Shown one piece after another: positions 45,954-57,374 of a DNA stretch of 64,000 bases. A model generated the notes under the pieces. The model was not told the DNA's origin. It worked only from the letters and a program-made list of their open reading frames with translations, and made no database searches. Each line of letters opens with the position of its first letter. Position 1 is the first letter of the stretch. The stretch covers positions 1-64,000 of the forward strand of contig NZ_AJJP01000155.1 in assembly GCF_000259195.1 (NCBI RefSeq), in the 5' to 3' direction. The DNA is from Pseudomonas donghuensis (GTDB lineage Bacteria > Pseudomonadota > Gammaproteobacteria > Pseudomonadales > Pseudomonadaceae). Position numbers and translations under genes: made by a program.

Positions 45954-47372
45954 CTAGCCGGGCTGGTTGATACACACGACCTTGGGCTGGGTCATGTCCT
46001 CGTAAGCAAACCGTACCCCCTCGCGGCCCAGGCTGCCGTACTTGAAGCCACCAAACGGCATGGCGTCGAAGCGATAGTCCGACGAGTCATTGATCATCAC
46101 CCCGCCGGCTTGCAGCTGGCGGGCCAGTTGCAAGGCTTTGGACAGGTCGCGGGTGAACAGGCCGGCATGCAGGCTGTACTCCGGCGCGTTGGCCAGGGCG
46201 ACGGCATCCTCCAGCATATCGAACGGTTCGAGGATCACCACCGGCGCGAACACTTCCTGCTGCCAGATCCGGCTGTCGTGGCTCACCTGTTCAAGCACCG
46301 TCGGCGCATAGCTTGACCCCTGGCGCAGGTGCCCGCACAGCAACTGAGCGCCCTCAGCCAGCGCTTCATTGACCAACTGCTCGGTGCGCCGCGCCGCATG
46401 CTCGCTGACCATCGGGCCTACATCGGTTTCCCGCTTGGCCGGATCACCCAGCACCAGGGCACGCGACAAGGCGACAAAGCGCTCGCGAAACGCCGGATAG
46501 ATCGAGCGCTGTACAAAAATGCGCTGGGTGCCAATGCAGTTTTGTCCCGCCGCCCAGAACGCCCCGGACACACAGGACTCTACCGTCGGTGCCAGGTCGC
46601 AATCGTCCAGCACCAGTACCGGGGCATTGCCGCCCAGGTCCATGGCGAGTTTTTTCAAGCCGGCGCTGCGGGCGATGGCCTCACCTGTGGCAAAGCCGCC
46701 GGTGAAGGAAATCATCCGCACCTCGCGCAGCTCGACCAGGGCCTGGCCCAACTCGACGCCACCGGTGGCAACGGTGACCACCGAGGCAGGCAAGCCGGCC
46801 TGGACCAGGCACTCCACCAACTTCAAGGCCGACAGCGGCGCCAGTTCCGAAGGTTTGAGGATCACCGCGTTACCGCCGGCAATCGCCGGGCCCAGTTTGT
46901 GCGCGACCAGGTTGAGTGGGTCGTTGTAGGGGGTAATGGCAACGATCAGCCCCAAGGGTTCGCGGCTGAACCACCCCTGACGCGACTCGGAGCCCTCGTA
47001 GGCGTCGAACGGCAGCACCTCGCCGGCGTTGCGCCGCGCCTCTTCGGCAGACAGCTTCAGGGTGTTGACGCAGCGTTTGACTTCCTTCTCGGCCTGACGC
47101 AGGGTCTTGCCCGCTTCGGCGACGATCAGCCCGGCAAAGGCGTGCGCCTGTTCCTCGACGCGCCGGGCCGCGGTTTCCAGCACCCGTGCCCGGGCATGCC
47201 GAGGCATCGCCGCACTCTCGCGTACGCCCAGACGGGCACGTTCGAGAATGCCAGGCACGGCGCTGGCATCGAGGTTGGCAACACTGCCGACCCGGCGACC
47301 GTCGAAAGGGCTGAAGACATCGATCTGCTTGGCATCGACCAGCTTGACACTGACTTGCTTGGATACGCTCAT
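45954..47372 (-). CDS. Aldehyde dehydrogenase, probable aspartate-semialdehyde oxidiser
   Basis: A 472-residue NAD-dependent aldehyde dehydrogenase. The catalytic cysteine lies in [19 protein letters not shown]. The usual catalytic glutamate motif ELGG reads [11 protein letters not shown], with aspartate in that place. NAD contacts include [20 protein letters not shown] and [12 protein letters not shown]. It is the last gene of the eight-gene run, 13 bp after a homoserine dehydrogenase. The likely reaction is aspartate-4-semialdehyde to aspartate, completing homoserine breakdown. The reaction is inferred from context; the family is certain. Confidence 0.85.
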
Positions 47373-47385
47373 GACGGTGCTCCGC

Positions 47386-48426
47386 TTACTGACGGTCGGT
47401 GGTGTGCAGGGCGATGATGTCCGACAGCAGGGCGAAGGCGGTTTCGATCCGCCCTGCCCCCGGGCCTGACACCGTCACCGCACCCACCAGCGCGGTGTTG
47501 AAAGACACGGCATTGGTCGCGCCGTTGATGGCCGCCAGCGGATGGGCAGCAGGCAACAGCCGGGCCTCGACACTGGCGCGAATCGAGCCATCCGCCTCGC
47601 GCTGCGCCGCCCCGATCAGTTTCCAGCAGTGACCGTTCTCGCTCGCCTGGGCGATATCGCGGGCAGTGATTGCGCTGATGCCGGAACAGGCAACGTCGCT
47701 GACCCGCAACTGCGCGTTGAGCAGTTCGTTGGCCAGGATCACCACCTTCAGGCGCACGTCGTAGCCCTCCACATCGGCGCTGGGGTCAGCCTCGGCATAG
47801 CCCAGTTGCTGCGCCTGGGCGACCGCCGCGTCGAAGCTCAGGCCCTCTTTCATGCACGTCAGCACGTAATTGGAGGTGCCGTTGAGAATGCCCTCGAAAC
47901 CTTGGATCTCGGCACCCGCCAGGGCTTGCCGGGCCAGGCGGATCACCGGCGTGCCGCTCATGACCGCGCCTTCATACTCAAAGGCCACATTGTGACGCCG
48001 GGCCAGGGCCTTGAGCTCGCTGCCGTGCAGGGCGATCGGGCCCTTGTTGGTGGTCACCACATGAATGCCGCTTTCCAGTGCCCAGCGGCAGAAGGTGGCA
48101 GCCGGCTCGCCGTCGACCGGGTTGGTGAAGGTGGCCTCCGCGACGATGTCGGCGCCGGACTGCTTGATCACGGTCTCGTTGAAGGCCTCGGCAGTACCGC
48201 CCGGCAGCCTTGCGAAGGCACCCTTTTCGGCCGGCAGCGCAACCAGTTGCCCGGCATCCAGGCCATTGCGATCAACGATGGAGCCAAGGAACAGGTCGGT
48301 GACGCCGACGATCTTCAGGCTCAAGCCCAGGGCGGCTTGCCAGGCCGCATTGCGCTCGGCAATCAATTGGGCCAGGCCCCGGTTCACCCCACCAAAACCC
48401 ACCAGTGCAATTTTATATTCAGTCAT
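47386..48426 (-). CDS. Homoserine dehydrogenase lacking the ACT domain
   Basis: A 346-residue NAD(P)-dependent homoserine dehydrogenase. It has [20 protein letters not shown] at the N-terminus, the substrate-binding [15 protein letters not shown] and [20 protein letters not shown]. The housekeeping enzyme of pseudomonads is about 430 residues with a C-terminal ACT domain for threonine feedback, which is missing here. This fits a catabolic role, converting homoserine to aspartate semialdehyde. The ATG at 48426 gives the family N-terminus [12 protein letters not shown]. It follows the Lrp gene by 123 bp and precedes the aldehyde dehydrogenase by 13 bp. Confidence 0.9.
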
Positions 48427-48549
48427 GACAGCTCTCGTCTCAGGCGTTGTTTGATGGAACCAGCCTAAGAGGTCGGCCTGGGCAGTTGAATAGGGCAAAG
48501 TGCTGTATTCGTTGGTCAATCTGCACCGCGACGCGCAGCTGTGCCGCGC

Positions 48550-48987
48550 CTAGTGCTCGGCAGACAGCACGAACGAAGTCACGGTGTTTTCAACGCCGGC
48601 CATGGCGGCGATTTCTTTCCAGACCCGGTGCACACGCTCGGGTGATGCCGCGTTGACGCGCAGCATCAGGTCGAACTCACCGCTGAGCACCTCGCACTGG
48701 ACGATCTCGGGGATCGAGCGCAACCCGGCCAGCACCTCTTCACCGCGCATGCGGTCATGGCGGTAGACGAAGATCACCGCGCTGATCATCGAGGCCGCCC
48801 GCCGCGAATCGCCCAGGCGCAGCGTATACCCCTGGATCGCACCGTCGCGCTCCAGGCGTTCGATACGCTGGCGCACGGCATTGCGCGACAGGTTGACCTT
48901 GGCGCCGAGCTCGGCATGGGCAATGCGCGCATTGGCGCTGAGCTCGGCCAGGATGCGTTCGTCCAGCGGGTCGAGGATGCGTTTCAT
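48550..48987 (-). CDS. Lrp/AsnC-family regulator
   Basis: A 145-residue Lrp-type regulator. The N-terminal helix-turn-helix reads LDPLDERILAELSANARIAH with LSRNAVRQRIERLERDGAI. The C-terminal RAM domain binds amino acids and forms octamers. The start overlaps the stop of the threonine-synthase-like gene by 4 bp (ATGA). It probably senses an amino acid, perhaps homoserine or threonine, and controls the surrounding genes. The ligand is inferred. Confidence 0.9.
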   Translation of the reverse strand: MKRILDPLDERILAELSANARIAHAELGAKVNLSRNAVRQRIERLERDGAIQGYTLRLGDSRRAASMISAVIFVYRHDRMRGEEVLAGLRSIPEIVQCEVLSGEFDLMLRVNAASPERVHRVWKEIAAMAGVENTVTSFVLSAEH

Positions 48988-50372
48988 GCGCCCTCCTGTT
49001 GGCTCACGCACAAGGCCTGGCGCAGGCCCGCCAGGTCCCCCGGCAGCAGGTACGGTGGTCGCGCCAGGGCTTCGGGCGGCGCGGCCACGCTGTCGCGCCA
49101 GGCGCCCAGCTCTGCCAGCAGCGCCGCTGATCTGGCCGGGGCGATTTGCCCCAGGGTGACCATTGGCGCCCCCAGGCTGCGCCGGTGCAGGCGCCCTGCC
49201 AGGGCACCGACGGCGGTATGCGGGTCGACCGCCGCGCCGGTTTCATGGAACAGCTTGAGCACTTCTTCGCGCACCTGTGCCTCCTCGACCGCGTGGGAGT
49301 CGAACAGCACGCGGGCGCGAAGCCATTGAGGATTGCCGATACTCAGTTCGCCGCACGCTTCAAAATGCTCCATCAACGACCTGACCGCAGCGCCGTCGTG
49401 TTCATACAGTTCCCAGATAAAGCGCTCCAGGTTGGAGTACAGCGAGAAGTCCATGGCCGGCGCCAGTGTCCGGTTGCTCTGGCGCATGGAGTAGCGGTTA
49501 CGCTGGATAAAATGATGCAGGGCATCGTTGCTGTTGGTCGAAACGATCACCTGATTGATCGGCAAGCCCATTTTCTGCGCGATGAAGCCTGCGTAGATCT
49601 CGGCAAAGCTGGCCGCCGGCACACTGAAGGCGACAGGACGGGTGCCGCCGCCCAGTTGCAAGGCGGCATGGAAGTAATAAACGATCTGCGCCAGCACGCC
49701 GACCCAGTTGCTGGAGTTGAAGCACACCGGTATCAGCCCGGGCAATGGCCAGTCGCGCAGCAGGCGCGACAGCAGGGTCTGGCAATCGTCAAAACTGCCC
49801 TCCACCGCCAGCAACTGCACCTGCTCCGGGTTTGCCCGCTGCAGGGCGTGCAGCTGTTGCGCCGGCACCCCGTGACACGGGTACAGCACCGCCAGGCGCA
49901 TGCCTGGGTAGGCGGCGAATGCCTCGATGGCAGCAAGCCCGGTATCGCCGTTGGTGGCACCGACCACCAGCGCCCTGGCGCCAAGCTCCTGGAGAAAATG
50001 CGCCGCGAGGCGCGCAAGCAGCTGCGCGGCAAAGTCCTTGGAAGACTGGGTCGGGCCGTGAAACAACTCAAGAATCCATTCGTTGTGGCCAATTTGCTGA
50101 AGCGGCGTAATGGCGCGGTGGCTGAAGTCGCGGTAGCTGTCGCTGAGCAACGCCCGTAACGTGCCTTCGTCCAGGGACTCGCCAACGAACGGCGACACCA
50201 CACGCCAGACCAACTCATCGAACGGCAGCCAGGACCAACTGGCAATCTGCTCCTGGGTGAACACTGGAACCGTTTGCGGGACATACAGCCCGCCGTCAGT
50301 GGCCAGCCCCGAGAGGACCACACTGCGAAAATCCGCCGCGGGCGCTGCGCCCCGTGTGCTTACATAGTGCAT
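48984..50372 (-). CDS. Threonine synthase-like PLP enzyme, divergent paralogue
   Basis: A 462-residue fold-type II PLP enzyme that matches threonine synthase from the first residues (MHYVSTRGAAPAADFRSVVL). The PLP lysine is Lys112 in FHGPTQSSKDFAAQLL; the housekeeping enzyme has FHGPTLAFKDF. GATNGDTGLAAIE replaces the usual GATSGDTG. The ATG at 50372 is chosen over the GTG two codons before because GGAG lies 5 bp upstream. In a homoserine catabolic run it may act on homoserine-derived or unsaturated amino acids rather than O-phosphohomoserine. The exact reaction is unknown. Confidence 0.85.
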   Translation of the reverse strand: MHYVSTRGAAPAADFRSVVLSGLATDGGLYVPQTVPVFTQEQIASWSWLPFDELVWRVVSPFVGESLDEGTLRALLSDSYRDFSHRAITPLQQIGHNEWILELFHGPTQSSKDFAAQLLARLAAHFLQELGARALVVGATNGDTGLAAIEAFAAYPGMRLAVLYPCHGVPAQQLHALQRANPEQVQLLAVEGSFDDCQTLLSRLLRDWPLPGLIPVCFNSSNWVGVLAQIVYYFHAALQLGGGTRPVAFSVPAASFAEIYAGFIAQKMGLPINQVIVSTNSNDALHHFIQRNRYSMRQSNRTLAPAMDFSLYSNLERFIWELYEHDGAAVRSLMEHFEACGELSIGNPQWLRARVLFDSHAVEEAQVREEVLKLFHETGAAVDPHTAVGALAGRLHRRSLGAPMVTLGQIAPARSAALLAELGAWRDSVAAPPEALARPPYLLPGDLAGLRQALCVSQQEGA

Positions 50373-50384
50373 GTTCACTCCAGA

Positions 50385-51281
50385 TCAGTACGACAGATGA
50401 CGATGCGCTTGCGCCACCAACCAGGTGGAGAACGCCGCGGCATCGGCTGACAACGCCTCGCCTTGGGCGCGCACCAGATAAAAGGACTCGCTGGCTTCTA
50501 TGCGGTAATCGAAGGGGGCGACCAGTTGTCCGGCCTTGAGCTGATCTTCCACCAGCGACGACCGCGCCAGGGCCACGCCCTGGCCCAGTTCCGCCATGCG
50601 CAAGGTCGAGACCAGGGTGTCGAACTGCAGGCCTCGGGAGTAATCCACCTCATCGGCACCGACCCGTTTCAACCAATAGCCCCAGCCTTCTTCGTAGCCC
50701 AGTACATGCAGCAAGGCATGCCGGGCCAGGTCGCGAGGTTGATGGATCGGTGACTGGGCCATCAGCGCCGGTGAGCACACCGGCTGCAGCACATCCCAGG
50801 TCAGGCGCTGGGCAATCAGCCCGGGCCAGCTGCCACAGCCCCAGCGAATCTCCAGGTCGTCCTCGCCATCGGGCGCCTTGACCCAGAGGTTGCTGATAAA
50901 ACGGATGTCGATGTGCGGGTATTCGCGACAAAACTCCGCCAGCCGCGGCGCCAACCAGTACTGAAGAAAACTCAGGCTGCCGCGCACCTTCAGCGGCCGG
51001 CGGTGGTGCTGGCCGAAGATCTCATTGGTACCCACTGCCAGGCGGCTGATGGCGTCCTGCACCACGGGCAGGTACGACTGCCCTTCTTCGGTCAGGCCCA
51101 GGCCACGCGGCAGGCGCTTGAACAGCGCCACCCCCAGGTGCCCTTCAAGCTGACGAATCTGCTGGCTCACCGCGCCTTGGGTCAGAAACAGCTCTTCTGC
51201 CGCATGGGTGAAGTTCAGGTGGCGCGCCGAGACCTCGAACGCCCTCAGCCAGTTCAGCGGCGGTAGGGATTTTTGACTCAT
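50385..51281 (-). CDS. LysR-family regulator (GcvA-like)
   Basis: A 298-residue LysR regulator with the GcvA-type opening LPPLNWLRAFEVSARHLNFT and helix-turn-helix LTQGAVSQQIRQLEGHLGVA. The ATG at 51281 is preceded by GAGG. Unusually, it is inside the run, transcribed in the same direction as the genes it may control. The next gene begins 12 bp after its stop. It probably responds to the amino-acid substrate of the cluster, which is inferred. Confidence 0.88.
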   Translation of the reverse strand: MSQKSLPPLNWLRAFEVSARHLNFTHAAEELFLTQGAVSQQIRQLEGHLGVALFKRLPRGLGLTEEGQSYLPVVQDAISRLAVGTNEIFGQHHRRPLKVRGSLSFLQYWLAPRLAEFCREYPHIDIRFISNLWVKAPDGEDDLEIRWGCGSWPGLIAQRLTWDVLQPVCSPALMAQSPIHQPRDLARHALLHVLGYEEGWGYWLKRVGADEVDYSRGLQFDTLVSTLRMAELGQGVALARSSLVEDQLKAGQLVAPFDYRIEASESFYLVRAQGEALSADAAAFSTWLVAQAHRHLSY

Positions 51282-51330
51282 CAAGGCAACCTCATCGGCA
51301 ATTATCGGCGCTCACTATGGCCCCGGCCGC

Positions 51331-52770
51331 TCATGCCGCGCCAGCAGAACCCTTGACTGCAGCGCTGATGCCCAGGCGTTGTTCACGCTTCTTGCGCGTG
51401 ACCCAGTAGACGAAATAGCACCAGGCAATGAACGGCAGGCCGAAGTACAGGGCGATTCGCTGGGCCGGGTCGAAGGCAATGCCGACGCACGCCAGCAAGC
51501 AGCACAGCAAGGCGCCAAGCGGCACCCAAGGGTAGCCACGCACGCGAAAGTGCAGATCTTCCACCCGGCCGCCGCCGGCGATGTACTGCCGCCGGAAGGC
51601 CATCTGGCTGGCGGCAATGCTCATCCACACCACCACGACCGCAAGCCCGGAGATCGAGACCAGGGCCAGGTACACGGTGTCCGGGGCAAGCACGCTGCTG
51701 AGCAACGAGGCCAGCGCCCCGGCCATGCTCAGGATGATCGCGTTGACCGGCGTACCGCGCTGGGACAGGCGCGCATAGCACTTGGGCATGTGGCCCTGGT
51801 CGCTCAAGGTCCAGAGCATCCTCGATGCGGCGTACAGGCCAGAGTTGGCGGCAGACAGCAAGGCGGTGATGATCACGAAGTTCATGATGTCCGCCGAATA
51901 GGGAATGCCGATCAGCTCGAACACCACCACGAACGGGCTTTCCACCAGGCCGGCCTGCTCGCGCGGCAGCAGCGTGGCGAGGACGAAGATCGTGCCGACA
52001 AAAAACAGCGCCAGGCGCAAGATGGTGGTGCGAATGGCCTTGGGCACGCTGGTTTGCGGGTCCTGGGCTTCACCGGCGGCAATCCCGATCAGCTCGGTGC
52101 CGGAGAAGGCGAACGACACCGCCAGCAGGGTCATGGCAATCGGCAAGAATCCGGTCGGGAACAACCCTTCGCGGGTGAAGTTGCCAAGGCCAACACCCTG
52201 TAGCTGCTGAACCTCGAAGACCCCGCAGATGGCCCCGCCGCCGATGACGATGAAGGTCAACACGGTGATGACCTTGATCAGCGACAGCCAGAACTCGGTT
52301 TCGGCAAACAGGCGCACCGACACCACATTGCTGACGAACACGGCGATGGCAAACAGCGCACTCCAGCTCCATACCGGTGTGTCCGGGAACCAGCGCACCA
52401 TGAGGATCCCCGCCGCAGTGAACTCCGAACCGATTGCCACGGCCCAGGTCAGCCAGTACAGCCAGGCCACGGTATAGCCGGTGCCGGGGCCCAGGTAGCG
52501 GGTGGCGTAACTGCTGAACGAGCCGGTTTCCGGCATTTGTACTGCCAGCTCGCCCAGGCAGACCATCACCAGGTAGACCATGACGGCGCCAATGATGTAG
52601 GCAATCACCGCGCCGAGTGGCCCTGCCTGGTTAACCGTGTAGCCGGTGGTCAGAAACAGGCCGGTGCCGATGACGCCACCCAGGGCCAGCATGACGATGT
52701 GACGGGTCTGCATCTGCTTGTGAAACTCGGCCCCGCATGCGGGCTGGCCTTCTTTGAGCTGAGTCTGCAT
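51331..52770 (-). CDS. APC-family amino acid permease
   Basis: A 479-residue membrane transporter of the amino acid-polyamine-cation family, AAT subgroup. It has 12 helices. The first helix motif [20 protein letters not shown] and [19 protein letters not shown] are diagnostic. This subgroup imports lysine, GABA, arginine, S-methylmethionine and similar compounds. It sits between the PLP gamma-enzyme and the LysR gene and probably imports the cluster's substrate. The start at MQTQLKEGQ is chosen for family length; MRTRK five codons earlier is the alternative. Confidence 0.9.
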
Positions 52771-52905
52771 TTTTCTTGTTCTCATGAAAGGGACATTCGC
52801 TGCCACCCCGGACGGGGCAGCAGGCGTTGAATGGCCGTCAGGTTTTATTGTTTTGAATTTTCATGAAGAGACCGAGCGACGGTTAGATCGAACGTCTTCG
52901 CTCAA

Positions 52906-54165
52906 CTAGGCTTCAACCCCGGGGCACTGAGCCTGCGGCTGTACCGGTTTACCCTGGCCTTGCTCGCGGCGCACCGCAGCAAAGGCATTGCGCAAGTCGG
53001 CCAGCAGGTCGTCGGTATCTTCGATACCGACAGAAATGCGTACCAGCCCTTCCGAGATGCCCAGGGCCTGGCGCTCCTCCAGGGTGTTTTCCACATGGCT
53101 GGTGGTGCGCGCCGGCCCGTAGATGGTCTCGACCGCGCCCAGGTTACCGGCGCGGTGGGCGTACTTGAGGTGTGGCAGCAGACGCACCACCGTTTCCATG
53201 CCACCCTTGAGCACAAAGCTGACGATCGCCCCAAAGCCGCGCATCTGCGCACAGGCAATGGCGTGCCCCGGATGCTGGGCCAGCCCCGGATAATTCACCG
53301 ACTCCACCAGCGCTTCGCTGCACAGGTACTCGGCCAGCACCTGCGCGCTGGCCTGTTGCTGACGGACACGCAAGGCCAGGGTCTTGATGCCACGGATGAT
53401 CAGGTAGGCCGAGAACGGGTCCAGCGCGGCGCCGTTGATCTCGCGATAATGGCGGACCTGGGCCATCAGCGGTTCGGCGCCGCAGACGACGCCACCCAGC
53501 ACATCGCCGTGGCCGGAAAGGAACTTGGTAGCGCTGTGCACCACCACGTCGACGCCAAGCGCCAGGGGGTTCTGGTTCAGCGGCGTGGCAAAGGTGTTGT
53601 CGGCCACCACCAGCGCCCCGACACGCTTGGCGGCTGCGGCCAGGCGCTGGATATCGAGGACCTTGAGGGTCGGGTTGGTCGGCGTTTCCAGGTACAGCAG
53701 CGCGCAACCACGCGCAACTTCGCGCTCGATGGCCTGGGTATCGAGGGTGTCGACCAGCGTCACCTCAACGCCCATGCGTGGCAGGAACTCTTCGAAAATC
53801 TTGTTGGTACCGCCATAGCTGTCGCGGGTCGACACCACGCGCTGGCCCTGGCGCAGGAAGCTGTGCAGCACGCCGCTGATCGCTGCCATCCCGGAGCTGA
53901 ACGCCACCGCCGCTTCGGCCGCTTCCAGTTCGCAGAGCTTGTCTTCCAGCACGCAGACCGTGGGGTTGCTCATGCGGCTGTAGATAAAGCCCGGCGCCTT
54001 GCCCAACGCCACGTCATACCAGGCATCGATGTCCTGATAGCCATAGGCGGCGCTCAACACAATGGGCGTCTGAGTAGCGTTGTAGGGGTGCCCGCCCTGC
54101 TCGCCACCCCACACCACCCGGGTTCCGGATCCTGCGCCCTGATCGAGCTTTGTCTTGTTGTTCAT
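52906..54165 (-). CDS. Cystathionine gamma-synthase-family PLP enzyme, candidate canavanine gamma-lyase
   Basis: A 419-residue PLP enzyme of the Cys/Met metabolism family (gamma-synthases and gamma-lyases). The PLP lysine is Lys214 in VVHSATKFLSGHGDVLGG. YSR at residues 62-64 contacts the phosphate, and SYGGTNKIFEEFL carries the tyrosine that stacks on the cofactor. The methionine gamma-lyase cysteine (YGCT) is glycine here, so methionine gamma-lyase is less likely. The neighbours (permease, homoserine dehydrogenase, aldehyde dehydrogenase) fit release of a gamma substituent to yield homoserine, as in the reported canavanine gamma-lyase pathway. The family is certain; the substrate is a hypothesis. 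Confidence 0.85.
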   Translation of the reverse strand: MNNKTKLDQGAGSGTRVVWGGEQGGHPYNATQTPIVLSAAYGYQDIDAWYDVALGKAPGFIYSRMSNPTVCVLEDKLCELEAAEAAVAFSSGMAAISGVLHSFLRQGQRVVSTRDSYGGTNKIFEEFLPRMGVEVTLVDTLDTQAIEREVARGCALLYLETPTNPTLKVLDIQRLAAAAKRVGALVVADNTFATPLNQNPLALGVDVVVHSATKFLSGHGDVLGGVVCGAEPLMAQVRHYREINGAALDPFSAYLIIRGIKTLALRVRQQQASAQVLAEYLCSEALVESVNYPGLAQHPGHAIACAQMRGFGAIVSFVLKGGMETVVRLLPHLKYAHRAGNLGAVETIYGPARTTSHVENTLEERQALGISEGLVRISVGIEDTDDLLADLRNAFAAVRREQGQGKPVQPQAQCPGVEA

Positions 54166-54300
54166 AGTGGTCTCGCATCGAAGAAGCACCGCAGTGCTCC
54201 GATTGGGGATGCGAGGACTATAGGGAAGCCCGGTCAGGCTGAAAAACGATCTAATCCGGGCCTGAGGCACGGTTTTTTTAATGGCTGGCGGCCCCTGGAT

Positions 54301-54711
54301 TCAGACCGGGGCATGGGTACTGTGCTGGTAGTGGTGGCTGATGCCGATGTCGTCCCGGTCGAGCGGGCAGTCCAGCTCCAGCACCAGACCGCCGGGCAGG
54401 CTGACAAAGACCTGGCAGACACGTTCTTGCGGCAACACCGCGACCTGGTACGGCAAGCCGCTGGCACGCACCCGCTCAAGCACGGCCGACGCGGGATGCG
54501 CGGTGCGCAAGGCCAGGTGGTTGAAGCGCGTGTGCTCACCTTCGATCAGGTGCACCAGCGCCTGGCCACCCTGGTACAACCAGTGCCCCGGGAACGGAAA
54601 CGCCGGCCTCGGCCCAGGCTCGACGCCCAGCAAGGTTTGCAGCGCAGCCTGAAGATCGCCGTCGGCGGATGTGTTGAAGGCTAAATGATCGAACTGAAAA
54701 TCAAGGGACAT
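54301..54711 (-). CDS. VOC-family protein, first gene of the amino-acid cluster
   Basis: A 136-residue VOC-fold protein: FQFDHLAFNTSADGDLQAAL at the start, HTRFNHLALRTAHPASAVLE in the middle and FVSLPGGLVLELDCPLDRDD near the end. The two His and the Glu typical of the metal site can be placed. It is the promoter-proximal gene of the run and lies 278 bp from the divergent mechanosensitive channel gene. It may bind or transform an intermediate (VOC proteins include lyases and isomerases). The role is unknown. Confidence 0.78.
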   Translation of the reverse strand: MSLDFQFDHLAFNTSADGDLQAALQTLLGVEPGPRPAFPFPGHWLYQGGQALVHLIEGEHTRFNHLALRTAHPASAVLERVRASGLPYQVAVLPQERVCQVFVSLPGGLVLELDCPLDRDDIGISHHYQHSTHAPV

Positions 54712-54989: not shown

Positions 54990-57374
54990 ATGCGCAATGC
55001 TTTTAAGATCATCGGCATCATCACCCTCGCCCTGCTGCAGCTGAGTGCCCTTGGGCAGGCCGCCGAACCACCCGCGCCTGCAACCGCCACGGCTGCCGCG
55101 CCGGCCGTCAAGGTGACGCAGAACGACCTGCAAGCCTTGCAACTGCGCCTGGACAGCCTCAAGCAGCAGATTTCCCAAGCCAACAACTACAACCAGCTCG
55201 AAGGCCCGCAGGATCGACTGCAGGCGCTGATCGTCGATATCGACCGCCTGTCCACTGCGCTATTACCTGAACAGGCGCAGTTGCGCGCGCAGTTGGAGGT
55301 GCTGGGCCCGGCGCAGGTCGACGCCCCGGTAGCGAGCACCTCGGACATTGCCGCGCAACGCAAGGCACTCACCGAACAGAAGGACAGCCTGGATGCCACC
55401 CTCACCACCCTGGCGACGCTGAAGGAAAGTGCCACCAACCTGCTGACGCAAATTGCCGGCATTCGCCGCACCATGCTCGAAAGCGAACTGACCCTGAGCA
55501 CCCACAGCCTGCTCAACCCGGCATTCTGGTTGCCGGTGTTCAACCCCTTGCCCGACGACCGCCAGCGCCTGCAGGCGTTCTTCGCTGAGCTTGGCAGCAC
55601 CGCCGGGGCCGTCTGGCAACCCGGCCAGCGCGTCTCCACCGTGGTGCTGGTGTTGCTCGCCCTGTTGGTCTGGACCCTGGGCCGCCGGCTGGTGGAGCGC
55701 TGGCTGGCCTGGGCCTGCATGAACCGCGTGCCCGAGGGCCGCTTGCGCCGCAGCTCGCTGGCCCTGGCCTCGGTACTGGCAACCCTGCTGGCCACCGGCG
55801 TTGCCCTGGAGCTGCTGTTTTACGCCTGCACCCGCCACCTGCCGTTGCCTGCCATGCTGGCGACATTCTCGGAGGAATTCGAAAAGCTCGCGTATACCTG
55901 TGTGCTGATCACAGGGTTGAGCCGGGCGTTGCTGTCGACCCAGCATCCCTCCTGGCGGCTACCCGATATCGCCGACCCGGTAGCGCTGGCCTTGCAGCCG
56001 TTTGCCCGCTGGCTGGCGGGCGCCCTGCTGGTGCTGGTGACCCTGGTGCAGATTTGCAACGCCGCCGGCATGAGCAACCCGTTGGTCATTGCCGGGCGCG
56101 GCATCGCCGCCTCGGTGATCACCGGCCTGATCATCGCCCTGCTGGTGCGCACCAGCAGCACCCGCCGGGCGATGGCTGCCGCCGGTGACGCGCCGGAAGC
56201 CGCCTCGACCATGGCCGGGGTGATCTACACCATCGCCAGCATCGCCATGCTCACCTCGGTGATTGCCCTGCTCACCGGCTATGTGTCGCTGGCGCGCTTT
56301 GTCACCTATGAGGTGGTCTGGGTGTTTATCCTGCTGGCCGGTTTCTACCTGCTGATGCAGGCGTTCAAGGACGGCTGCGAATACCTGTTCTCGCCCAGGC
56401 AGGCCAGCGGCAAGGCGCTCAAGGAATTGCTGGGCATCGGTGACCGGCGCCTGGATCAGATCGAGACCCTGATTTGCGGTTTCGGTCGGGCTGGGTTGTT
56501 GTTGCTGGCGGTCATCACCCTGTTCGTCGGTGGTATCGGGACCACCCTCGGCCAACTGATCAGCAACATCGCCGCGTTTCTCAGCGGCGCCGGCTTGCGC
56601 CAGTTCAACATCATTCCGGGGCACCTGTTCAATGCGGCGCTGGCCCTGATGCTGGGCATCTACCTGATCCGCACCCTGCGCCGCTGGCTGGATAACGAGT
56701 TCCTGCCCAAGACCGACATGGACCCGGGCATGTGCGCCTCGCTCAGCACCCTGTTCGCCAACATCGGCTATGCCCTGGTGATCCTCCTGACCCTGTCGTC
56801 GCTGGGGGTCAAATGGACCAACCTGGCCTGGATCGTCAGCGCGCTGTCGGTAGGCATCGGTTTCGGTCTGCAGGAGATCGTCAAGAACTTCGTCTCCGGC
56901 CTGATCCTGCTCACCGAGCGCCCGGTCAAGGTTGGCGACCTGATCAGCATCAGCGGGGTCGAGGGCGACATCCGCCGCATCAACGTACGCGCCACCGAGA
57001 TCCAGCTGAGCGACCGCTCGATCGTCATCGTGCCCAACTCGCAACTGATCTCGCAGAACCTGCGCAACGTCACCCTCGGCGGCAGTGCCCAGGGGGTGGC
57101 GACCCTGGAGCTGGTGTTCCCCCTGGACATCGACCCCGAGCAGGTGCAGACCCTGCTCTACGACACCTACCTGGAGCACGAGACGATCCTCGACAAACCT
57201 GCGCCGTTCGTACGCTTCAGTAACCTCACCGCAGAGGGCATCACCTTGAAGGTCACCGGCTACGTCAGCAGCCCGCGCATTGTCGCCACGACCAAGAGTG
57301 ACCTGTTGTTCGAGATTCTCAAGCGGCTGGCGGCGGCGGGCATCCAACTGGCCAAGCCTGCGGCTACAACCTGA
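54990..57374 (+). CDS. Large MscS-family mechanosensitive channel with DUF3772
   Basis: A 794-residue channel of the MscS family. A signal-like first helix is followed by a periplasmic coiled-coil region (LRLDSLKQQISQANNYNQLE) of DUF3772 type, then about ten membrane helices. The MscS pore and beta domain follow: ALSVGIGFGLQEIVKNFVSG and LILLTERPVKVGDLISISGV. It opens when membrane tension rises and protects against osmotic downshock. Larger relatives with periplasmic parts (MscM/YjeP and YbiO types) are often stress-specific. It is divergent from the VOC-led cluster. Confidence 0.9.
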   Translation: MRNAFKIIGIITLALLQLSALGQAAEPPAPATATAAAPAVKVTQNDLQALQLRLDSLKQQISQANNYNQLEGPQDRLQALIVDIDRLSTALLPEQAQLRAQLEVLGPAQVDAPVASTSDIAAQRKALTEQKDSLDATLTTLATLKESATNLLTQIAGIRRTMLESELTLSTHSLLNPAFWLPVFNPLPDDRQRLQAFFAELGSTAGAVWQPGQRVSTVVLVLLALLVWTLGRRLVERWLAWACMNRVPEGRLRRSSLALASVLATLLATGVALELLFYACTRHLPLPAMLATFSEEFEKLAYTCVLITGLSRALLSTQHPSWRLPDIADPVALALQPFARWLAGALLVLVTLVQICNAAGMSNPLVIAGRGIAASVITGLIIALLVRTSSTRRAMAAAGDAPEAASTMAGVIYTIASIAMLTSVIALLTGYVSLARFVTYEVVWVFILLAGFYLLMQAFKDGCEYLFSPRQASGKALKELLGIGDRRLDQIETLICGFGRAGLLLLAVITLFVGGIGTTLGQLISNIAAFLSGAGLRQFNIIPGHLFNAALALMLGIYLIRTLRRWLDNEFLPKTDMDPGMCASLSTLFANIGYALVILLTLSSLGVKWTNLAWIVSALSVGIGFGLQEIVKNFVSGLILLTERPVKVGDLISISGVEGDIRRINVRATEIQLSDRSIVIVPNSQLISQNLRNVTLGGSAQGVATLELVFPLDIDPEQVQTLLYDTYLEHETILDKPAPFVRFSNLTAEGITLKVTGYVSSPRIVATTKSDLLFEILKRLAAAGIQLAKPAATT

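Follow-up and report, generated by a model that had tools for sequence, protein, structure and literature searches.

We analysed a 64,000-nucleotide stretch of Pseudomonas donghuensis DNA (contig NZ_AJJP01000155.1, positions 1 to 64,000; hereafter the window) and focus here on a group of seven genes in which a gamma-family pyridoxal 5'-phosphate (PLP) enzyme of the family NF006097/PRK08249 is encoded with an APC amino-acid permease, a LysR regulator, a threonine-synthase paralogue (ThrC-like protein), an Lrp/AsnC regulator, a homoserine dehydrogenase (HSD) and an aldehyde dehydrogenase (ALDH). These genes probably form a homoserine funnel, and to this funnel as a whole we assign a probability of about 0.7, a figure that excludes the identity of its substrate. 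The permease would import a gamma-substituted amino acid, from which the PLP enzyme would remove the gamma substituent, adding water to give homoserine; the HSD, which lacks an ACT domain, would then convert homoserine to aspartate semialdehyde, and the ALDH would convert aspartate semialdehyde to aspartate. The LysR and Lrp proteins would regulate these steps, perhaps together with the ThrC-like protein. The gamma-lyase would thus be an interchangeable front end, a canavanine gamma-lyase elsewhere and PRK08249 here. The kind of pathway, a gamma-lyase followed by conversion of homoserine to aspartate, is known; the lyase family is uncharacterised, and the unit includes a conserved, odd ThrC paralogue. 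Gene content, conservation, clade, genomic contexts and residue conservation are our observations, and from these we infer every reaction, direction and substrate.

Of 398 Pseudomonas genomes, 67 have a match to NF006097/PRK08249 above the family's cut-off, and we compared the neighbourhoods in 63 of the 66 genomes other than that of the window (G096, G150 and G293 were left out). The genes for the PLP enzyme, permease, LysR regulator, ThrC-like protein and Lrp regulator have identical order and strand in all 63 neighbourhoods, and the HSD and ALDH genes come next in 61 of them; of the two exceptions, one stops at a contig end (L045) and the other is without both genes in the fetched stretch (L046). 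Because the seven genes stay together as a block in 61 of 63 neighbourhoods, they form a real unit, beyond chance adjacency, and the PLP gene is probably its first gene. Median dN/dS, computed on pairs from 14 chosen loci, was 0.045-0.077 for six of the block genes and 0.095 for the ThrC-like gene. A relative of the LysR regulator (66% identity) is also found close to the PLP gene in a different family of the same order (L199). The gap between the Lrp and HSD genes varies from 107 to 1703 bp across the 61 loci, and long gaps (e.g. L055, L065, L079 and L054) hold tandem units of 200-460 bp in four of the five examined, with motifs that recall Pseudomonas REP sequences. An extra gene in the long gaps was considered and rejected, as tandem repeats fill much of the gap in four of the five.

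That a catabolic module takes homoserine through aspartate semialdehyde to aspartate, fed by a gamma-family PLP enzyme, is well supported by sequence comparison, in keeping with what a preliminary description of this DNA had proposed. Identity of the window HSD to three rhizobial HSDs (from pRL8, Rhizobium acidisoli, and B3/4-plus-canavanine-gamma-lyase loci) is 63-69%, and to a Streptomyces HSD it is 57%. The ALDH, whose presumed substrate is aspartate semialdehyde, is 66-69% identical to six rhizobial ALDHs from homoserine, canavanine-type and aminotransferase-linked loci, and the Lrp regulator is 52-55% identical to the Lrp proteins of two rhizobial loci. The HSD group of RLV_0467 and its pRL8 orthologue pRL80071 is described as strongly biased to homoserine oxidation, citing work on an Arthrobacter enzyme, and pRL80071 as induced in the pea rhizosphere, in the covered parts of that paper (PMC10228743); pRL80071 is presumably the HSD of the pRL8 locus considered here (L008). 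This homoserine locus of Rhizobium johnstonii 3841 resembles the window in its HSD (63%), ALDH (66%) and Lrp (52%), but has a homoserine kinase and an ABC transporter where the window has the ThrC-like protein and APC permease, and its PLP enzyme is annotated as class V and matched no NCBIfam model at 1e-80.

Within Pseudomonas, the same set recurs beside a different lyase. Canavanine gamma-lyase orthologues, with 70-75% identity to their rhizobial counterpart, are present in 18 of the 398 genomes, and 12 stretches from 11 of these genomes were compared. Eight of them (L201-L208) share the order DapA-like, ThrC-like, Lrp, HSD, ALDH, canavanine gamma-lyase, SMR and ABC transporter, with CtdA upstream in six of the eight, and in L204 and L205 a permease-like match precedes the lyase; the remaining four (L209-L212) carry related sets that are rearranged or partial. 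Genome G131, absent from the lists of genomes with PRK08249 or canavanine gamma-lyase, has ThrC-like, Lrp, HSD and ALDH genes together with a permease 34% identical to that of the window, and no gamma-lyase beside them (L243, 4465-10608); this is probably a homoserine-only locus. Since the set is found both in canavanine loci and in G131, with no gamma-lyase beside it there, the module seems to go with homoserine, and the lyase at its front end varies. In a sample of 211 genomes, a ThrC-like protein of the window type (at least 54% identity) was found in 36, of which 34 also carry PRK08249; the other two are G131 and G154, which has a canavanine gamma-lyase.

The ThrC-like protein is the unusual member of this module. 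It aligns with 44% identity to a second ThrC of the window genome (G000; 5.65 Mb, 64 contigs), which is encoded close to a second HSD on contig C27, and these two are presumably the housekeeping copies (ThrC and hom). Among 64 aligned window-type sequences (a fragment, L077, was left out), the Schiff-base lysine K114 is kept in all, and all have A-S-[FS]-A at positions 256-259, where the C27 copy (L218) has GNFGD, which we take to be the canonical PLP-phosphate loop of threonine synthase; our references were this one C27 sequence and alignments to solved threonine synthases. The ThrC-like proteins of the eight canavanine loci L201-L208 all have Gln for the Schiff-base lysine and keep a G-N-F-G loop, and those of L209, L210 and L212 are of the window type. 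The gene is broken in at least two relatives, by truncation to a 244-residue fragment in L077 and by one internal stop in G145. A non-catalytic role, especially for the Gln type, is plausible from these residues. The same place before Lrp is taken, in three rhizobial loci of the canavanine type, by a gene annotated as homoserine kinase or phosphotransferase.

The preliminary description had named canavanine, or another gamma-substituted amino acid, as the compound degraded; our results do not support canavanine, and the broader alternative stands. The canavanine gamma-lyase pathway was reportedly worked out in Pseudomonas canavaninivorans and rhizobia by Hauth et al. in 2022. As proposed for the window, it uses a PLP gamma-family enzyme that gives homoserine, followed by HSD and ALDH, and its Pseudomonas loci have ThrC-like, Lrp, HSD and ALDH in common with the window. 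It differs in having a lyase of another clade (the rhizobial enzyme is 37.5% identical) and in its CtdA, SMR and ABC transporter genes, none of which is present in the window block, where an APC permease is found instead. We called rhizobial proteins canavanine gamma-lyases from their position beside CtdA, following the covered part of PMC10018355, which cites the canavanine gamma-lyase work (Hauth et al. 2022). Two such proteins are 37.5-37.7% identical to the window enzyme, and on NF006097, whose cut-off is 600 bits, those of CtdA-type loci reach 284-289 bits, against 717.8 bits for the window enzyme. A quick LG+G4 tree, built from 94 of the 167 sequences in the alignment and flagged by the program for long branches among the outgroups, placed 75 PRK08249-type rows on one branch (100*) and 15 canavanine gamma-lyases on another (also 100*). 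Membership of the window enzyme in the canavanine gamma-lyase clade was rejected on these scores, on the tree and on the pocket residues given below. No canavanine gamma-lyase was found in G000, and no standalone B3/4 deacylase CtdA (the canavanyl-tRNA deacylase), the sole B3_4 match there being in a 798-residue frame, as would be expected for PheT. Moreover, 13 of the 18 genomes that have a canavanine gamma-lyase carry PRK08249 as well, where 3.0 would be expected (hypergeometric 1.3e-7, ignoring genome kinship), and the two enzymes therefore do not look like mutual substitutes.

Outside Pseudomonas, the family occurs mostly in company with ectoine genes among the relatives that we kept. PRK08249 was present in 3 of the 398 genomes of a phylum sample, the window genome counted, and a profile scan of genome contigs, based on an alignment of the Klebsiella, Priestia and window sequences, gave 485 stretches that encode a relative. 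Neighbourhood counts are for the best 80 of these 485, ranked by the Klebsiella sequence, which favours ectoine-type relatives; 57 of the 80 have at least 5 kb on both sides, and gene matches were counted within about 10 kb. A match to DoeA, EutB, EutC or DoeB lies nearby in 63 of the 80 (51 of the 57 with at least 5 kb on both sides), and HSD and ALDH lie nearby in 44, all of them ectoine-linked. No DoeD match of at least 35% was seen near the PRK08249 gene in any of the 80; with the same DoeD reference, all 15 Pseudomonas ectoine loci examined gave a DoeD match of 55-57%. ThrC-like, APC, LysR, Lrp and CtdA matches of at least 30% were likewise seen near none of the 80. DoeA, HSD and ALDH occur together in 43 relatives, and 23 of these are without EutB and EutC, so that in these 23 the PLP enzyme is the sole candidate seen that bridges diaminobutyrate and homoserine. 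Eleven of the 23 (L142, L149, L152, L153, L159, L166, L168, L172, L187, L191 and L194) are also without a recognised deacetylase nearby, and here the PLP enzyme might take gamma-N-acetyl-diaminobutyrate directly. IncFIB plasmids of Pluralibacter gergoviae (L006) and Klebsiella variicola (L007) carry genes for ectoine import and hydrolysis followed by the PRK08249 gene; neither stretch has a DoeD or HSD match, and just a 30% ALDH match was found downstream in L007.

Two known arrangements are informative for comparison. The DoeABCD ectoine pathway ends, like that proposed for the window, in aspartate semialdehyde and aspartate, but it uses the transaminase DoeD, and no gene of the window block is DoeA, DoeB or DoeD. 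Putative ectoine operons of Bacillota combine a homologue of the PLP enzyme (60% identity in Priestia) with HSD and ALDH in a single operon, but they contain ectoine hydrolase genes, and the Priestia HSD and ALDH are 43% and 50% identical to those of the window. Bacillota clusters of the form pucR-eutBCD-atf, then abgB-thrA-adh, have been called tentative ectoine operons, and the parts of that paper covered propose no gamma-lyase step (PMC13188858); judged by position, its "atf" may be the PRK08249 enzyme. An account of the ectoine genes of Aquibacillus names no lyase in the part covered (PMC10203224). Among the papers listed, titles and abstract openings showed no account of these steps, in a search that left most subscription papers outside, and that covered diaminobutyrate lyase and catabolism, ectoine with HSD and cystathionine gamma-synthase, conversion of S-methylmethionine to homoserine and dimethyl sulfide, homoserine catabolism and diaminobutyric acid in Pseudomonas, and ThrC pseudoenzymes.

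For the active site, we used as reference sites the methionine gamma-lyase (MGL) positions Y59, R61, Y114, C116, K211, K240, D241 and R375, in a numbering that we assume, and their window counterparts are Y62, R64, Y117, G119, K214, R241, E242 and R376. The residues that we take to be the Schiff-base lysine (K214) and the PLP site (Y62, R64, D189 and R376) are all present. Across 65 Pseudomonas-type sequences, 45 ectoine-type sequences linked to HSD and 20 further ectoine-type ones, the eight counterparts, K122 and I243 do not vary. They are also found in relatives without ectoine neighbours and hence mark a family pocket, not a substrate; as proof of a common substrate they were dropped for this reason. 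All 15 canavanine gamma-lyases show A119 and R122, with A-L-V at 241-243. At the level of sequence, then, the pocket separates the PRK08249 family from canavanine gamma-lyase and by itself names no substrate. E242 could bind a gamma-ammonium or a sulfonium group. The Pseudomonas enzymes have M65 where all 65 ectoine-linked sequences have N, and Y349 where those mostly have V, and the stem of the Pseudomonas clade measures 0.60 changes per column.

In the ectoine-linked family, the likeliest substrate of PRK08249 would be L-2,4-diaminobutyrate or a gamma-N-acyl form of it, with ammonia or an amide leaving, at a little short of even odds; for the Pseudomonas clade the same assignment, likewise the likeliest one, has somewhat lower odds, which we reduced slightly because the pocket residues are family-wide. 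On balance unlikely, and put forward tentatively, is a joint reading in which PRK08249 is an undescribed homoserine-forming diaminobutyrate gamma-lyase, which provides a transaminase-free ectoine route in many Bacillota and stands in front of the funnel in Pseudomonas, and in which the ThrC paralogues with lost or altered cofactor sites are non-catalytic and act as sensors, for the neighbouring Lrp, of homoserine or its phosphate. A number of observations weigh against the funnel or its diaminobutyrate assignment. Seventeen of the 80 relatives are without an ectoine match, six of these with at least 5 kb on both sides, and these 17 have the same ten PLP-site and pocket residues. Weak class-III aminotransferase matches (24-28%, at an E threshold of 1e-5) were seen in 3 of 82 loci. 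In three Zoogloeaceae loci (L120, L121 and L125), genes for a dihydrolipoyl dehydrogenase, an AceE-type E1 and an E2 come after the PLP gene, and these pyruvate dehydrogenase-type genes suggest a 2-oxobutyrate product in that branch, not homoserine. Within Pseudomonas, L046 is without HSD and ALDH in the stretch compared, and the long stem together with M65 and Y349 could reflect a change of substrate in that clade. DoeA (E up to 1e-60) is present in 16 of the 67 block genomes and in 62 of the 331 others (Fisher p 0.32), and the 15 ectoine loci examined from those 16 genomes (L225-L239) all have their own DoeD match, at 55-57%.

With no association with DoeA, the block as an ectoine operon in Pseudomonas was rejected, and ectoine is not the source of the block's substrate in this genus. 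The loci L225-L239 are full ectoine loci that lie away from the block, and each of the 15 has matches to EhuABCD, EnuR, EutBC, DoeAB, an ALDH and DoeD. DoeA was not found in G000, where DoeB and DoeD were not searched genome-wide. The candidates that remain for Pseudomonas are diaminobutyrate taken up as such, S-methylmethionine as its main rival, and other gamma-substituted amino acids.

Soil bacteria cleave the S-methylmethionine sulfonium to homoserine and dimethyl sulfide, and the block could do the same if an MmuP-like permease imported the compound and the PLP enzyme released dimethyl sulfide. The best NCBIfam model of the permease is indeed NF008484, at 656.9 bits against 381.8 for the next model, and the permease is kept in 63 of 63 loci; the sulfonium charge also equals that of a gamma-ammonium, so that E242 could serve either. 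We nevertheless regard S-methylmethionine as quite unlikely, since 656.9 bits is under the cut-off of 716, no match over that cut-off was found in the 67 block genomes, and the pocket residues are common with enzymes of ectoine loci, where this substrate is unexpected (although the residues are family-wide). Another homoserine analogue substituted at the gamma position, such as canaline or a legume O-acyl, O-oxalyl or gamma-N-acyl compound, would also yield homoserine. A new substrate would be compatible with the long stem and the residues specific to the clade, and in 11 of the 80 relatives the presence of DoeA, HSD and ALDH without a nearby match to EutB, EutC or a deacetylase would agree with gamma-N-acetyl-diaminobutyrate being used directly; against this, no block gene points to any single compound, and the deacetylase may lie elsewhere in those genomes, and we consider this option unlikely.

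Canavanine as the substrate, with the PLP enzyme as a second type of canavanine gamma-lyase, appears very improbable. The downstream module is that of the Pseudomonas canavanine loci, and the excess of genomes with both enzymes (13 of 18) could be read in favour of a shared substrate, but the co-occurrence also argues against redundancy. The PLP enzyme has a different clade and pocket, the block has no CtdA or SMR gene, and no CtdA match lies near the 80 kept relatives. Most improbable of all is a role for the PLP enzyme in sulfur metabolism, as a methionine or cystathionine gamma-lyase or synthase that just happens to lie beside a homoserine operon. Methionine gamma-lyase is its next best NCBIfam model, yet the score of 382.7 bits is far under the cut-off of 549.7, and five other members of the family in G000 exceed the Pfam cut-off. 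MGL C116, K240 and D241 correspond to G119, R241 and E242 in the window, judged against the MGL-like L214 (its name and the numbering are our assumption), and no sulfur gene was recognised in the block.

The preliminary description had set out an eight-gene run in one direction, and all eight genes do lie on the minus strand at 45954-54711 (Table 1). Their families are confirmed by Pfam and NCBIfam matches, or, for the VOC protein, by annotated relatives and a low-confidence fold, and the claim that the HSD lacks the ACT domain also holds, none being listed among its domain matches. The run itself is upheld for seven genes, which are conserved as a block, and not for the VOC gene, which is not conserved beside it. 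The VOC protein has no Pfam match; its relatives are annotated as glyoxalase or lactoylglutathione lyase, and a structure model from the single sequence (mean pLDDT 60, low confidence) matched mostly glyoxalase/dioxygenase-type structures. Beside the block, no credible match to it was found in the 63 Pseudomonas relatives (eight weak matches, best E 0.005). The part in the pathway that had been suggested for it is not borne out, and we rejected it as a pathway member on these grounds.

Table 1. Genes of the P. donghuensis locus, with positions in the window
Feature	Position	Strand	Assignment
Aldehyde dehydrogenase (ALDH)	45954-47372	-	PF00171; presumed aspartate-semialdehyde dehydrogenase (to aspartate)
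Homoserine dehydrogenase (HSD)	47386-48426	-	PF00742; NF004912 468.5 bits, cut-off 373; presumed catabolic
Lrp/AsnC regulator	48550-48987	-	Family match
ThrC-like (threonine-synthase paralogue)	48984-50378	-	TIGR00260 183.9 bits, cut-off 167.1
LysR regulator	50385-51284	-	Best model GcvA
APC amino-acid permease	51331-52806	-	AA_permease; best model NF008484 (S-methylmethionine permease), below cut-off
PLP gamma-family enzyme	52906-54165	-	Cys_Met_Meta_PP; NF006097/PRK08249 717.8 bits, cut-off 600; presumed homoserine-forming gamma-lyase
VOC/glyoxalase-fold protein	54301-54711	-	Annotated relatives and low-confidence fold; neighbour of the conserved unit

The start of the PLP enzyme is best placed at 54165 (419 aa) and that of the HSD at 48426 (346 aa). 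The Lrp gene starts at 48987, its ATG sharing bases with the ThrC-like stop codon (ATGA), an overlap also present in 27 of the 63 relatives. Elsewhere in G000 there are five further Cys_Met_Meta_PP genes over the Pfam cut-off, and a second MmuP-like permease is found on contig C39 (L240). Just upstream of the VOC gene, a large membrane-protein gene reads divergently at 54990-57374 (+), with a product that, we assume, resembles a mechanosensitive channel.

The funnel widens the canavanine pathway to a modular scheme, in which various gamma-lyases would feed one homoserine-to-aspartate module. It would include in the ThrC-like protein a conserved PLP-fold protein encoded beside an Lrp gene, one type of which has its lysine replaced. 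For a family named just "cystathionine gamma-synthase family protein", which is encoded within ectoine loci in many Bacillota, in some Proteobacteria and on Klebsiella plasmids, the scheme offers a testable function. If the diaminobutyrate reading is true, it would supply the step for which Gram-positive ectoine operons have no DoeD, and ectoine would be degraded without a transaminase, by way of diaminobutyrate, homoserine and aspartate semialdehyde to aspartate.

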